Shown: in pieces, positions 23,422-42,049 of the stretch
Position numbering within the stretch: position 1 is the first letter of the stretch
How the letters are laid out: the number at the start of each line of letters is the position of its first letter
Source: an uncultured bacterium
GTDB taxonomy: Bacteria > Cyanobacteriota > Vampirovibrionia > Gastranaerophilales > Gastranaerophilaceae
Length of the DNA: 64,000 bases
Reading direction: 5' to 3'
Assembly (NCBI GenBank): GCA_949296425.1
Contig: CASFPN010000020.1
Span: 1-64,000 of the forward strand
Program-made: the position numbers and the translations under genes
The notes under the pieces: generated by a model
What the model was told of the DNA's origin: nothing
What the model saw: only the letters and a program-made list of their open reading frames with translations
Databases searched by the model: none

Positions 23422-24771
23422 TTATGCAAATACAGATATCACTAAACTATATACAATTTTAAATAATCTTATTATAGCATTATGTTCAGGTTCTATTTCA
23501 TATAATTTATCAACATCCAGCTCCGTTCCGTCTGAAAATTTAAAATTTTCAATCCTTTGTTCCTTAGACTTATACCAATTCTTGAGTGTTAATGAATTAT
23601 CGTTATTTTTAAGTGTAAACACAAGGTCATTTCCTTTTCTTTTAATAACAAAATCTTCTCTTGAAAGTTGCTCGGAAAAAATTACGGTATCATTGCCCCC
23701 GTCAACAAGAATCTTTCCTTTATCAACCCACTTGTCTTTGTAATCCGATATCCTATTATCCCAATACCAGCGTTGAACTCTTAATTTGCCGTATTTTTCA
23801 TCTTTAACAGAATCATTTCCAACGCCTGTATAAATATAAATATCGTTTCCTCCACCGCCTTCAAGCAAATTAAAACCTTCTGCACCGGCAAGAATATCTG
23901 AACCGTCTTCTCCGTAAATTCTGTCATTCCCGAATCCGCCATGTAAAAAGTCATCTCCCGAACCGCCTCTTATTAAATCGTTACCTCTGTTACCATAAAT
24001 TATATCAGGGGTATTTGCTCCGCTTATTCTGTCATTTTTTAATGAGCCGAAAAGATGCAGCGGTGTTTTTCCATCGGATTTTACATTCTTAAAATATTTC
24101 AAATCAGAACCGGAATTTGAATAAGTTATCAAATGCGCACCATAGCCGAAATGTTTTATTGCAGAAGCTAATTTGCCCGTATTAATTGTTTTGTCACGAA
24201 CAAGTCTTTGAAAAATTATATAGGAAGCTATATATGAATAACTGTCTGTCATATTTTTAATTATATTTTCATATACTTTTTCACCGGGAATCAATTTATT
24301 TTGAGCGTAATCATAGTTTATGTCAAAATTTTTGCCAAAACTTGTCTGAGCTATAAAGTCAACATAAAGCATATCCTTGAGCAATTTATATGCATTTCGA
24401 ATATTCTCAGGTTTATACTTCTCTATTTCCTCCTTCGGTATTTGCATAAATTTAGTCAAGATAAATTTTTGCATTGACAGCTCTGTTTCTGTTGTTCCAG
24501 TCCACATGGAAAGCAGCTTATCAAAATCAGCATAAATATGATTGGCAGAATTCATCGACGCTAATTTTTTTATAAATTGCCTCAGATATTCATCCTGAGA
24601 AGCTCTGAGCTGTAAATCATCAATTCTTCCAAAACCATGCAGCCACGGTAAATCAATCACATCAACTCTGATAGAATAATATTTAGCCGATGATTCATTT
24701 TTAACACGCTCATTAGCTGCTGATGATAAACAAAAACAAAATAAAATGAGTAATACCAGAAATTTTTTCAT
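23422..24771 (-). CDS. Secreted protein with RTX calcium-binding repeats
   Basis: A 449-residue protein. A Sec signal peptide occupies residues 1-20 (MKKFLVLLILFCFCLSSAAN). A helical domain of unknown family covers about 40-240. Glycine-rich nonapeptide repeats at about 245-315 (GNRGNDLIRGGSGDDFLHGG, GEDGSDILAG) bind calcium into a beta-roll. The tail FKFSDGTELDVDKLYEIE is typical of haemolysin-type repeats. Most RTX proteins leave by type I secretion without a Sec peptide, so the combination is unusual. It is last in the series parvulin, aminopeptidase P, SpoU methyltransferase, RTX. Confidence 0.82.
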   Translation of the reverse strand: MKKFLVLLILFCFCLSSAANERVKNESSAKYYSIRVDVIDLPWLHGFGRIDDLQLRASQDEYLRQFIKKLASMNSANHIYADFDKLLSMWTGTTETELSMQKFILTKFMQIPKEEIEKYKPENIRNAYKLLKDMLYVDFIAQTSFGKNFDINYDYAQNKLIPGEKVYENIIKNMTDSYSYIASYIIFQRLVRDKTINTGKLASAIKHFGYGAHLITYSNSGSDLKYFKNVKSDGKTPLHLFGSLKNDRISGANTPDIIYGNRGNDLIRGGSGDDFLHGGFGNDRIYGEDGSDILAGAEGFNLLEGGGGNDIYIYTGVGNDSVKDEKYGKLRVQRWYWDNRISDYKDKWVDKGKILVDGGNDTVIFSEQLSREDFVIKRKGNDLVFTLKNNDNSLTLKNWYKSKEQRIENFKFSDGTELDVDKLYEIEPEHNAIIRLFKIVYSLVISVFA

Positions 24772-29205: not shown

Positions 29206-30149
29206 CTATTGTCCGATACTTTGAAGCATTTGGTTTGTAGAACTGCCGCCTTTTTCAACCATACTTGCCCCGCTGCCGCTGAGCCATAAAGGCTTATTTA
29301 AAGCAGAAATAAGACGGAATTGAAAAACATCATATCCCCATTTATTCGGACCTTTTTTACCGTTTATATCTATTGCAAATAACTTAGTGTCCTTACCATA
29401 CCAAACAATAATTGTTCCATCTGCCAATACCCATATATGATTTTTGGTATGAATAGAATTTTCACGCCAGTTCGTAGATCCTGATGTTGCATTGCCGACT
29501 TGTTCTTCGTCAAAATCAGGGTTATTTTCCGCAACTATAGTATCATATCCCTTATACTCAGGAATACAGCCGTCTGCAACTCCGTTGCCTTTACATATCT
29601 TTATTAATTTCAATGTTTTTTGCAATTCATTTCGAAAAACATTGCAATCACTACCTTGATTTGTAGGATTTTCCGCCTCGCCCCATTGAACACAGTTGCC
29701 GTTTTCATATTTTAGACAGGGAGCTCCTACCCAGTCATGACCATAATAACACATCGGATGATATCCCAAATTTACTTCAGCCTGACGAAATCCGTTAAAA
29801 ACAATGTTGTAGGCGTGTTTAAACTGATTTTTTAAAATATGTTTTTGGACATTTGCACTTATAACGGGTAAAGTTATAGCTGCGACAACACCTATTATGC
29901 CGAGGGTGATGAGAACCTCTGCCAATGTAAACGCGCATTTACGTTGCTTGTTCGATAGGGCTGCGTGCGCAGCACCTTTTACAAGGGTAAAGACGTATTT
30001 ACATTGACATTTTACAAGATTTAAATAGCTTGACTTCCGGACATCTTGTCTTATCTCTAGCTCAGGAGTGCCCCCCCCCCGAAGGACAAGCTGTTTACAA
30101 GATCTTGTTTTAAGGCAGATAAGCTTGATAAATTACTCAATTTCTTCAT
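29206..30149 (-). CDS. Prepilin-like protein, start out of frame across a G10 tract
   Basis: The body (29206 to about 29940) has KCAFTLAEVLITLGIIGVVAAITLPVIS, a type IV prepilin N-terminus with Ala before the cleavage point, then about 220 residues including WVLADGTIIVWYG and FAIDINGKKGPNKWGYDVFQF. This frame is open upstream to the G tract at 30071-30080 but contains no ATG or GTG; only a TTG within the FTLAEV motif is available. The good start (ATG 30149, AAAGGAG upstream) is in another frame and hits TAG at 30057. A -1 shift or one extra G in the tract joins the two. A paralogue lies at 32707. Inferred: slippage- or phase-controlled pilin-like protein. Confidence 0.75.
30057..30149 (-). 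CDS. Leader ORF upstream of prepilin-like gene
   Basis: A 30-codon frame from the ATG at 30149 with a strong ribosome site. It ends SFGGGALLS and a stop at 30057-30059, immediately after the G10 tract. It is best read as the zero-frame part of the prepilin-like gene rather than as an independent peptide, because matching leaders with the same FGG(G/R)ALLS ending occur at 33564 and 41981. Confidence 0.5.
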   Translation of the reverse strand: MKKLSNLSSLSALKQDLVNSLSFGGGALLS

Positions 30150-32706: not shown

Positions 32707-33632
32707 CTATTTTGCTATTTCTTGCATCATTTCTGTTGTGCCTACTCCGCCTTTTTCAACCATATTTGCTCCGCCGCCTCTGAGCCATAAAGGCTTATTT
32801 AAAGCAGAAGTAAGACCGAATTGAAAAACATCGTATCCCCATTTATTCGGGCCTTTTTTACCGTTTATATCTAATGCAAATAATTTTGTATCAGAAGCAT
32901 ACCATATAATTATTATACCGTCTGCCAATACCCATATATGATTTCTGGTATGAATAGAATTTTCACGCCAGGCTGCGGCTCCTGAGGTCTGCAGAAGTAT
33001 ATCATCATTGTCTAAATCAGGGTTATTGTCCGCAACTATAGTATCATATCCCTTATACTCAGGAATACAGCCGTCTGCAACTCCGTTGCCTTCGCAAACT
33101 TTTATTACCTTGAGAGTTTTTAATAATGTTTGTCTAAATACTGCACAATCACTATTTTGATTTGTAGGATTTCCACCAGGGGCGTACTCAAGGCAGATGC
33201 CGGCTGTACTATCATATCTTATGCAATCAGTACCAATGTTGTCATCACCATAATAACACATTGGATGATATCCCAAATTTACTTCAGCCTGACGAAATCC
33301 GTTAAAAATAATGTTGTAGGCGTGTTTAAACTGATTTTTTAAAATATGTTTTTGGACATTTGCACTTATAACGGGTAAAGTTATAGCTGCGACAACACCT
33401 ATTATGCCGAGGGTGATGAGAACCTCTGCCAATGTAAACGCGCATTTGCGCTGCTTGTTTGATAGGGCTGCGTGCGCAGCACCTTTTACAAGGGTAAAGA
33501 CGTATTTACATTGACATTTTACAAGATTTAAATAGCTTGACTTCCGGACATCTTGTCTTATCTCTAGCTCAGGAGTGCCCTCCCCCCGAAGGGTTCAAAC
33601 TCAGTAATATTAACAGTTTTAACTTCTTCCAT
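32707..33632 (-). CDS. Prepilin-like protein, start out of frame across an interrupted G tract
   Basis: A paralogue of the gene at 29206. The segment from KCAFTLAEVLITLG through NVQKHILKNQFKHAYN and RQAEVNLGYHPMCYYG is almost identical, the middle differs, and the end (GKKGPNKWGYDVFQF) is again shared. The only good start (ATG 33632, behind GGAG) runs in zero frame to TAG at 33564. The body frame opens from the tract GGGGGGAGGG (33578-33587, 10 bases) and has no ATG or GTG of its own before the prepilin motif. A -1 shift or one inserted base would fuse them. That the 10-base length persists in an interrupted tract argues against a plain homopolymer sequencing error. Confidence 0.75.
33564..33632 (-). 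CDS. Leader ORF upstream of prepilin-like gene
   Basis: A 22-codon frame MEEVKTVNITEFEPFGGRALLS with GGAG upstream, ending just past the G tract. It is probably the zero-frame N-terminus of the prepilin-like gene at 32707. The sister leader at 41981 reads MEEAKIVTIVEFEPFGGGALLS. Confidence 0.5.
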   Translation of the reverse strand: MEEVKTVNITEFEPFGGRALLS

Positions 33633-36596: not shown

Positions 36597-37778
36597 CTAC
36601 TTAAGCAGATACTCTGCAGAACAACACCCGCCTGAAACCACTTCACCAACTCCGCCGGCTCCGGCAAAATATGTCATAGTTTCGGTCCCGGCATCCTTTG
36701 AACATTCACATTTTCCGTTGTTTGCGTCTTTATTATAAGTTCCCTCAGCTCCAAGAGGTAAAATTTTGTTGTTAAATACCGATATAATAAAAAAGTCGCG
36801 TCCTATTTGATTTGGCCCTTGTGCTGCTCCGTTTACATCAACAGATATCCAAGGACCGCCATGGGTGCCGCCAAGATATACAACACTGCCATCTTTTAAT
36901 AAAAATGCAACATTTGCCAAACTATAAACTGCGACAGGAGTTTGATTTCGCTCATTATATGGTAGCTTTAAAGTTCCATATACAGTACTACCAATTGATA
37001 TACCAGCCCAATAAAATTTAATATGAGAACTAAATCCATCATTATCACATTTTGGGTCTATATATCTGTAACACGCAGATACTGGTTGTAAAATTGCTCT
37101 AAATCTTTCTATGAATTCTTCTGAATATTGAAAAGTATCTCCGCCATATTTATTTGACGAGTCTAAAGGCATACTGCATTTACCATTAGAATAGGTGCCT
37201 TGCCTGCATACCGTAATATTCTCAGATATAATTAAATTAAAAGCATTACTTACAGTTGAATAAGCTTTTTTCCACTTTGTAATATTTTGCCTGTCCTGTA
37301 TTTTTGAAATTATAACAGGCATTGTTATCGCCGCAACAACACCTATAATACCGAGGGTGATGAGAACCTCAGGCAATGTAAACGCGCATTTGCGCTGCTT
37401 GTTCGATAGGGCTGCGTGCGCAGCACCCTTTACAAGGGTAAAGACGTATTTGCGTTGGCTGATCGGCGGATCTACGTGCGTAGCACCTTTTGCAAGAGTA
37501 AAGACGGATTTGCGTTGGCTGGTCGGTAGGACTACGTGCGTAGCACCTTTTGCAAGAGTAAAGAGTATTTGCGTTGACTGACCGGCAGATCTACGTGCGT
37601 AGCACCCCTCTCCCGGGAGAGGAAAAATTTTTACGATACTTATTAGTGCCTTAGTGACATAGTATCTTACGAAATTTAAATTGCTTGACTTCCTGACATC
37701 TTGACTTATCTCTAGCTCTGGAGTGCCCCCCCCCCCGAAGCTCTGCAAAAATTCTCTTGAACCTTTTTTCATTCGCAA
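36597..37778 (-). CDS. Prepilin-like protein with tandem-repeat leader, in frame across G11
   Basis: A 393-residue frame, open from the ATG at 37778 through an 11-base G tract (37726-37736; read SFGGGGTPELEI). A long leader contains three copies of a 20-residue unit of the form FTLAKGATHVxxPxSQRK (37383-37612). Then comes the prepilin motif RKCAFTLPEVLITLGIIGVVAAITMPVIISK, with Ala before the cleavage point and Pro for Ala at +4. The body includes VYLGGTHGGPWISVDVNGAAQGPNQIGRDFF. It is the only one of the four related genes with an in-frame tract, so it may be in the expressed phase. A leader this long is far beyond the 5-25 residues usual for type IV prepilins. Confidence 0.82.
   Translation of the reverse strand: MRMKKGSREFLQSFGGGGTPELEISQDVRKSSNLNFVRYYVTKALISIVKIFPLPGEGCYARRSAGQSTQILFTLAKGATHVVLPTSQRKSVFTLAKGATHVDPPISQRKYVFTLVKGAAHAALSNKQRKCAFTLPEVLITLGIIGVVAAITMPVIISKIQDRQNITKWKKAYSTVSNAFNLIISENITVCRQGTYSNGKCSMPLDSSNKYGGDTFQYSEEFIERFRAILQPVSACYRYIDPKCDNDGFSSHIKFYWAGISIGSTVYGTLKLPYNERNQTPVAVYSLANVAFLLKDGSVVYLGGTHGGPWISVDVNGAAQGPNQIGRDFFIISVFNNKILPLGAEGTYNKDANNGKCECSKDAGTETMTYFAGAGGVGEVVSGGCCSAEYLLK
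37383..37612. repeat. 60-bp tandem repeats with palindrome in prepilin leader
   Basis: Nearly four units of about 60 bp, each with a short palindrome: GCTGCG-TG-CGCAGC in the first unit, CTACG-TG-CGTAG in the others. Both arms change together, so base pairing is kept while the sequence varies. One such unit is present in the leaders at 29955-30000 and 33450-33500. Confidence 0.75.
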
Positions 37779-41108: not shown

Positions 41109-42049
41109 TTACGGCAGACTTACCCAATAGCCTTTTGTTTCATCGTCAGGATTTATATCATTCATAGCATACCAAGAACAGCCCAATCCATTGCCTTTCT
41201 GAGATGAATCAACAGAACAGGGGCTGCCTGCCTGAGAAACCGTTGAATTAACATCCGAATGCTCGGAATTAAAGTTATTTTCTATATCTTTAAGTTCATC
41301 TTCAGTATATTTTTTTGACATTTTTACAGGTAGAAGCTTATCATTACTGTCTACCCTGAAAACAAATATATCATGGCCTACCCTGTTAGGGCCTTTTTTA
41401 GCTCCGTTAATATCAACTGTTATATTAATAACCATGCCATTTATATTCACACTGCAACACGAACCGTCAGGGAGCTGGCGATCTGGATTATGATTACCTA
41501 AATCTATATATGCATCAGCAGTATTGGAATAATTTCTTACAGGCTTATCGTATTTACATTGCCCGGCCACTTTCAATTGTTTATAATATTCATTCTGAAA
41601 TTCCATTTTATGAGGATAAACTTTATTCGCAGCATCATAATCGGCGAAAGACAAGTTTAAATTTTCAACTCCCAGACTTTGCTTTGTATATAACAAAGCC
41701 TGTGATTGAACAGAATAAGCTTTTTTAAACGCAGTTTCCAGCTGCTTATTTTGAGTCCGATTTATTAAAGTAGGCATAGTCATAGCCGCAACAACACCTA
41801 TGATGCCGAGGGTGATTAAGACTTCCGCAAGGGTGAACCCGTATTTGTGCACAAGTGAAGTGTGAAGGAATGAAGACAATTTATTACTATGATGTTCCAT
41901 ATCACTATTATGACATAAATTTGCTATTTTTACAAGAGTTAGGGAACATTTGTGTTTTGGGGACGAATGAGTCTTTATCTCTAGCTCAGGAGTGCCCCCC
42001 CCCCGAAGGGTTCAAACTCAACAATAGTAACAATCTTAGCTTCTTCCAT
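41109..42049 (-). CDS. Prepilin-like protein, start out of frame across a G10 tract
   Basis: The body has a canonical prepilin site KYGFTLAEVLITLGIIGVVAAMTMPTLI with Gly before the cleavage point. It ends with INITVDINGAKKGPNRVGHDIF and a polar C-terminus. In this copy an in-frame ATG exists at 41900 (MEHHSNKLSS), without a ribosome site. The frame is open further upstream, through TPELEIKTHSS, to the G10 tract at 41995-42004, where a TGA closes it. The start with a ribosome site (ATG 42049) runs in zero frame to TAG at 41981. The same -1 shift or extra G as in the other copies would join it to the body. If translation starts at 41900 the product has 263 residues. Confidence 0.78.
41981..42049 (-). 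CDS. Leader ORF upstream of prepilin-like gene
   Basis: A 22-codon frame MEEAKIVTIVEFEPFGGGALLS, nearly the same as the leader at 33564 and preceded by GGAG. It ends right after the G10 tract. Probably the zero-frame start of the gene at 41109. Confidence 0.5.
   Translation of the reverse strand: MEEAKIVTIVEFEPFGGGALLS

Follow-up and report, generated by a model that had tools for sequence, protein, structure and literature searches.

How could a pilin be made from a gene whose start codon and body lie in different reading frames? The question is raised by four prepilin-like genes in the stretch of DNA analyzed here (the window, 64,000 nucleotides from an uncultured member of the Gastranaerophilaceae), in which a G-rich tract lies between a short leader reading frame and the prepilin body. 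A first-pass annotation of the sequence had offered two answers, a phase switch or programmed slippage at the tract.

Four prepilin-like genes and their tracts

The features of the four genes are as follows.

30071-30080, minus strand: gene 1 tract, G10, flanked by TTC and CACTCC
30057..30149, minus strand: gene 1 leader reading frame, from the ATG at 30149 with the ribosome site AAGGAG to the ending ...SFGGGALLS and the TAG at 30059-30057
29206..30070, minus strand: gene 1 prepilin body, frame open from the tract, with the signal FTLAEVLITLGIIGVVAA
33578-33587, minus strand: gene 2 tract, 10 bases interrupted as G6-A-G3, GGGGGGAGGG
33564..33632, minus strand: gene 2 leader reading frame, from the ATG at 33632 to the ending FGGRALLS, then TAG
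32707..33577, minus strand: gene 2 prepilin body, a near-copy of gene 1 only from the tract onwards
37726-37736, minus strand: gene 3 tract, G11, in frame (ON-type)
36597..37772, minus strand: gene 3, one continuous reading frame of ATG (37772), G11 and prepilin body; Pfam N_methyl
41995-42004, minus strand: gene 4 tract, G10
41981..42049, minus strand: gene 4 leader reading frame, from the ATG at 42049, MEEAKIVTIVEFEPFGGGALLS and stop, ending FGGGALLS and stop
41109..41994, minus strand: gene 4 prepilin body, frame open from the tract
41898..41935, minus strand: gene 4 internal sigma70-like promoter and ATG (41900), with -35 TTGTAA at 41935-41930, a 17 nt spacer and -10 CATAAT at 41912-41907

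In genes 1, 2 and 4 the leader stops at a TAG just 3′ of a 10-base tract, and either one additional base or a -1 shift fuses it with the prepilin body. That these three genes (at 29206, 32707 and 41109) are one base short, and that the fourth copy (36597) with 11 G is in frame, had been proposed in the first-pass annotation, and coordinates and frames bear out both statements, gene 3 being continuous from its ATG at 37772. Gene 3 also contains the N-terminal methylation motif PF07963 with a score above the family cut-off. Runs of G9 are far in excess of expectation in the window, with 7 overlapping matches against 0.03 expected. The further claim that the only start codon with a ribosome site lies 5′ of the tract holds for the bodies at 29206 and 32707, where an in-frame start with a ribosome site was looked for and none was found. 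The gene at 41109 does have its own ATG, at 41900 behind the sigma70-like promoter. The interruption of the gene 2 tract (G6AG3) probably much reduces its capacity for slippage, and this gene may be locked OFF.

Gene 3 has an N-terminal extension that contains in-frame 60-nt repeats (KGATHV..SQRK..FTLA; window 37378-37616). These repeats contain the palindromic GGTGCTRCGCACGYAG, and their copy number differs among genes.

Tract length and reading frame across the genus

The source genome (2.0 Mb, 46 contigs) holds 85 runs of at least 10 G, mostly located about 28 nt 3′ of the ATG in type IV-like prepilin genes, and most of these runs are of exactly 10. Genome-wide there are only four runs of exactly G8 and five of exactly G9 before the jump to 85 sites of 10 or more. 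The same shape is seen in approximately 367 kb of sequence, in which A/T runs decay smoothly and G/C runs thin out at 5-7, almost vanish at 8-9, and peak at 10. Approximately 92% of the gated genes, meaning those that carry a tract, have a tract of exactly 10, a count that is approximate like the others given here, since genes were detected by regular expressions. Many contigs of the source genome (C3, C5, C17, C21, C25, C27, C29, C31, and C42) end no more than a few hundred bases from a G10 tract; the repeated 5′ segments of the pilin genes thus apparently interrupt the assembly, and the copy number counted may be too low.

The motif TTCG10CAYTYYNRGCT is present in 70 stretches in GTDB r220, where the named records with the motif belong to Candidatus Gastranaerophilales or Melainabacteria and two bins are labelled just bacterium. 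Contig names of the motif-bearing records indicate both SPAdes and MEGAHIT assemblies. Among 30 genomes searched, a related pattern is confined to members of the same genus, and one member lacking the flanks in exactly this form (G001) nevertheless carries dozens of G10 runs, differently flanked. Viral contigs searched for the tract motif do not carry it. The window case is one instance of a genus-wide pattern involving dozens of prepilin genes.

The gated genes fall into two classes: sense genes, whose mRNA has G10 approximately 27-30 nt 3′ of the ATG, and antisense genes, whose mRNA has C10 approximately 25-28 nt 3′ of it. The first-pass annotation had proposed counting tract lengths in related genomes, and the counts confirm its reading of the frames. 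Over the source genome and its relatives, 143 of 153 gated genes with a tract of 10 need exactly one more base to reach the prepilin frame, and 8 of 10 genes with a tract of 11, from paralogues and several species, are in frame. Natural length variants across paralogues and species therefore follow the arrangement seen in the window, 10 being mostly out of frame and 11 mostly in frame. The deficit of one base recurs in each of the three leader/body phase combinations, for G10 and C10 alike, which indicates that it is the total frame that is kept and not the local codon phase. Because the paralogues share ancestry, P-values that assume independence overstate significance; a better argument is that the result recurs over three phase combinations, on both mRNA strands, and in several species. 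Counted by the length at which a gene would be ON, ON=11 exceeds ON=9/12 by 156 to 4. As in a contingency locus, the frame is thus set by the length of a homopolymer near the 5′ end of the coding sequence.

Of 119 genes, 116 keep the pilin frame free of stops between tract and pilin signal (mean 227 nt), and none keeps the other frames free. Translation must therefore often reach the body by way of the tract. Most of the sampled pilin genes that lack a tract have an ordinary start with a ribosome site near the signal, whereas gated genes of length 10 almost never do.

Tracts are also found outside the pilin family. An acyltransferase gene (in relative G036), a gene for a GT5-like protein, and one for a long surface-like protein are in frame at a tract length of 10, and a GT8/methyltransferase gene is in frame at 11. 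A HipA-type kinase gene (PF07804; L035:1662-2546, minus strand, contig C6 near 17431) is one base short, its G10 run sitting inside the DGWGGG stretch; from its sequence, this toxin-like gene may be phase-variable too. Since the length-10 tracts of non-pilin genes occur both in and out of frame, length 10 is not tied to one frame, as is to be expected where the length is determined by a process acting on DNA. Separately, an OmpA/MotB-like gene of a relative (L233:796-1512, minus strand; also L238) has G10 right after its start and is one base short, and it could be part of a defence or motility operon.

Strand polarity, flanks and the junction of leader and body

Within each contig the G-run lies on one strand regardless of gene direction at 84 of 85 sites, the sole exception being a G12 site without the motif. 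A strand bias of the genes was rejected as the source of this polarity because coding sequence is balanced between the strands (183 vs. 188 kb). A general G skew of runs was likewise rejected, as runs of 4-6 G are not polarized (301/303, 46/42, and 4/4 on the two strands). Judged by third-position GC skew, the tract strand is the G-rich strand in most contigs. By the usual rule the G-rich strand is the leading strand, and it was assumed to be so here. In the relative G036 (5 contigs), the tracts change strand twice, each time where GC skew also reverses; further flips of tract orientation occur once in the long contig of G030 and once in contig C52 of G004. DnaA was considered as an origin marker in G036 and set aside, as it is not near the polarity switch, and GC skew was used instead.

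The sequences flanking the tract are conserved on the DNA strand in both gene orientations, with TTC before the tract and CA-NTYY after it, and are not conserved on the mRNA. A mechanism acting on RNA would predict flanks conserved in the mRNA, and the flanks therefore favor a switch at the DNA level. Effects of leading and lagging strand on mutation of G-runs have been discussed in general terms (PMC10710837), and a literature search on poly-G and the leading strand, or on polarity of phase-variable tracts, found no report.

The tract also marks a boundary of similarity. In the source genome, 267 pairs of sites are alike over at least 60 nt directly 3′ of the tract, and 247 of these pairs are without similarity 5′ of it. 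BLAST blocks begin at positions -3 to 0 of the tract or, for antisense genes, end just past it. At the gene 1 locus, several relatives lack a pilin, and in others the pilin comes with another leader and tract; one (G032) has a tract-less pilin that is in frame straight from the ATG. A comparison of the glmU neighborhood was uninformative, since the relatives lack a pilin beside glmU. The varied state of the gene 1 locus points to gain, loss, or recombination of tract and gene at promoters that are themselves conserved. One relative's copy of this locus (stretch L346) has the tract GGAG9.

Probable replication slippage and its alternatives

Replication-slippage phase variation of a genus-wide set of contingency prepilin genes, with OFF as the default at 10 and ON at 11, is the likely explanation of these findings. 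Each gene would consist of a locus-specific promoter, a ribosome site, a leader of approximately 10 codons, a G (or C) homopolymer, and a prepilin body. At the favored length of 10, the leader would end at the early stop and no full-length pilin would be produced; the gain of one base during replication (10 to 11) would fuse leader and body and turn the gene ON, so that cells with G11 would be expected to express the pilin. The switch would operate at the DNA level and depend on replication, because the G-run occupies the leading strand for genes of either orientation. With the majority of the genes lacking one base at the favored length, a typical cell would keep most of them OFF and display only a few of its dozens of pilins.

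Some observations fit replication slippage less well. With approximately 92% of tracts at exactly 10, the length distribution is far narrower than is usual for phase-variable tracts, which span 9-12 in the Bifidobacterium table. A default OFF state alone does not require the excess of ON=11 over ON=9/12 (156 vs. 4). Loss of MutS was considered as a source of tract instability and rejected, as MutS_I is encoded in the source genome and most relatives; with MutS present, one-base loops should usually be repaired. Switching may thus be slow, which fits the narrow length peak. Finally, a subset of genes with an internal promoter and start could bypass the tract.

This subset comprises 36 of 167 genes, gene 4 of the window among them, and its mark is a conserved sigma70-like promoter with a start (TTGTAA..TATAATAGTGATATG) lying between tract and pilin. 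The conserved block, TTGTAA-N16/17-TATAATAGTGATATGAAACATCAC, is also found in stretches L354, L084, L310, and others, and it would yield a near-leaderless mRNA. From these sequence features, internal promoter and start may provide tract-independent expression in part of the family, gene 4 included. A GTGAT..ATCAC inverted repeat spans the internal start codon and is possibly an operator.

The same block is evidence for the proposal that bodies are generally translated from their own start between tract and pilin signal, leader and tract being a mere regulatory upstream reading frame. Of the looser matches to the block, 34 of 44 have the internal start in frame. However, an in-frame start with a ribosome-site-like sequence exists in only 38 of 167 gated genes, compared with most of the sampled ungated pilins, and internal initiation alone would not require the pilin frame to stay open from tract to internal start, as it does in 44 of 44. 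Such a general bypass is accordingly improbable. Programmed slippage, the other answer offered at the outset, would have length-10 genes expressed through a ribosomal -1 shift or an RNA polymerase that adds a base, giving a small constant dose of pilin. It accommodates the uniform deficit of one base at a uniform length of 10, the marked preference for ON=11 over ON=9/12, and the preservation of the frame after the tract although the gene is otherwise off, and the strict need for one extra base fits a ribosomal -1 shift. Nevertheless, the ribosomal side of the proposal was not upheld: G10 and C10 work equally in any codon phase, unlike a slippery site of fixed phase, stimulatory structure downstream was looked for and not found (mean z 0.11 and -0.22), and Shine-Dalgarno-like sequences upstream are few and not enriched (14/127 and 0/40). 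On the transcriptional side, the long homopolymer that slippage by RNA polymerase calls for is present. Programmed slippage also leaves leading-strand polarity and DNA-strand flanks without a reason, and some non-pilin genes are in frame at 10. It is therefore unlikely, and the phase switch is favored by polarity, by the flanks, and by the occurrence of length 10 in non-pilin genes in either frame state.

A simpler concern is that the true tract length is 11 and all genes are in frame. A uniform one-base error in sequencing or assembly would create a uniform deficit, and Illumina sequencing has difficulty with G-tracts (PMC9187656). Against this, the same assemblies report runs of 11 and 12, most 11s being in frame, SPAdes and MEGAHIT assemblies from several species agree, some non-pilin genes are in frame at 10, and polarity and flanks would be left unexplained. 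An artefact on this scale is highly implausible. The similarity boundary raises a different idea, that the tract serves mainly as the place where pilin bodies swap between promoter/leader units, with the frame offset being secondary. In Neisseria, a G-quadruplex lies upstream of the single expressed pilE gene, which is fed by promoterless donors, and G-quadruplex-assisted pilin variation of this kind would be the model. The 247 of 267 pairs that share nothing before the tract, the start of similarity blocks at -3 to 0, and the differing leaders and bodies at orthologous loci are all in keeping with swapping. Gene duplication with later acquisition of other promoters, however, would likewise leave copies whose resemblance stops close to the gene start, and the consistent one-base offset across phases is left unexplained; a role chiefly in recombination is doubtful, if compatible with phase variation. 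Like pilE, the Gastranaerophilales genes have a G-run beside pilin sequences that are shared between copies in a module-like manner. Unlike pilE, they have a plain G10 inside the coding region of each gene, and each has its own promoter and start; the gated copies have their own start codons and ribosome sites with many different leaders, and pilE-type promoterless silent donors feeding one expression locus were not found among them. There is also a small chance of a dedicated system, coupled to replication, that recognizes the leading-strand sequence TTC-G10-CA (lagging-strand template), keeps the tract at exactly 10, and directs the addition of a single G; the tract would also be the crossover point through which pilin bodies move between promoter/leader units. 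Repertoire switching would then be programmed and not random.

For replication-slippage phase variation, the closest precedent is the sortase-dependent pilus of Bifidobacterium breve (bbr_0113 and bbr_1889), in which the first pilin gene is split by a G-tract into a signal/start reading frame and a body reading frame (PMC9187656). There, tract length decides whether the frames are fused, and replication slippage has been demonstrated by deep sequencing; each strain has one or two such loci with G9-G12, and the lengths shift in the mouse gut (PMC9187656). Both cases concern gut bacteria with a pilin gene split by a homopolymeric G-tract. In contrast to the sortase pili, the Gastranaerophilales genes encode type IV-like prepilins, at dozens of loci per genome, with a length that is almost always 10, and they add leading-strand polarity, a flanking motif, and the mirror class with C10. 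In Campylobacter jejuni NCTC11168, 29 polyG/polyC contingency loci are described (PMC4965091). The two organisms share many G/C homopolymers per genome that lie inside reading frames and control surface and other genes, and they differ in that C. jejuni tracts lie in many gene types, whereas those of Gastranaerophilales lie mostly in one gene family and are nearly all one base short. The principle is therefore known, and what is new is the scale, the uniform deficit, the fixed length, the flanking motif, and the strand polarity. Literature searches on phase variation in Melainabacteria or Gastranaerophilales returned only an unrelated flagellin paper, and searches on phase variation in metagenomes returned no relevant report.

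With dozens of one-base-short pilin genes per genome, this array would be one of the largest phase-variable sets on record. Switching, if it occurs, would let a gut symbiont vary its surface combinatorially, with a bearing on phage resistance and host attachment. The strict polarity of G10, absent at 4-6 G, offers a clean natural test of replication direction against homopolymer length and slippage. For annotation, it should be noted that tract-gated genes will be split or called pseudogenes.

Two further features of the window lie apart from the pilin genes. A 57-nt tandem repeat array with 9 overlapping copies occupies positions 404-1087, and positions 23422-24771 on the minus strand encode a protein of 449 amino acids that has RTX-like GGxGxD repeats and begins like a signal peptide.
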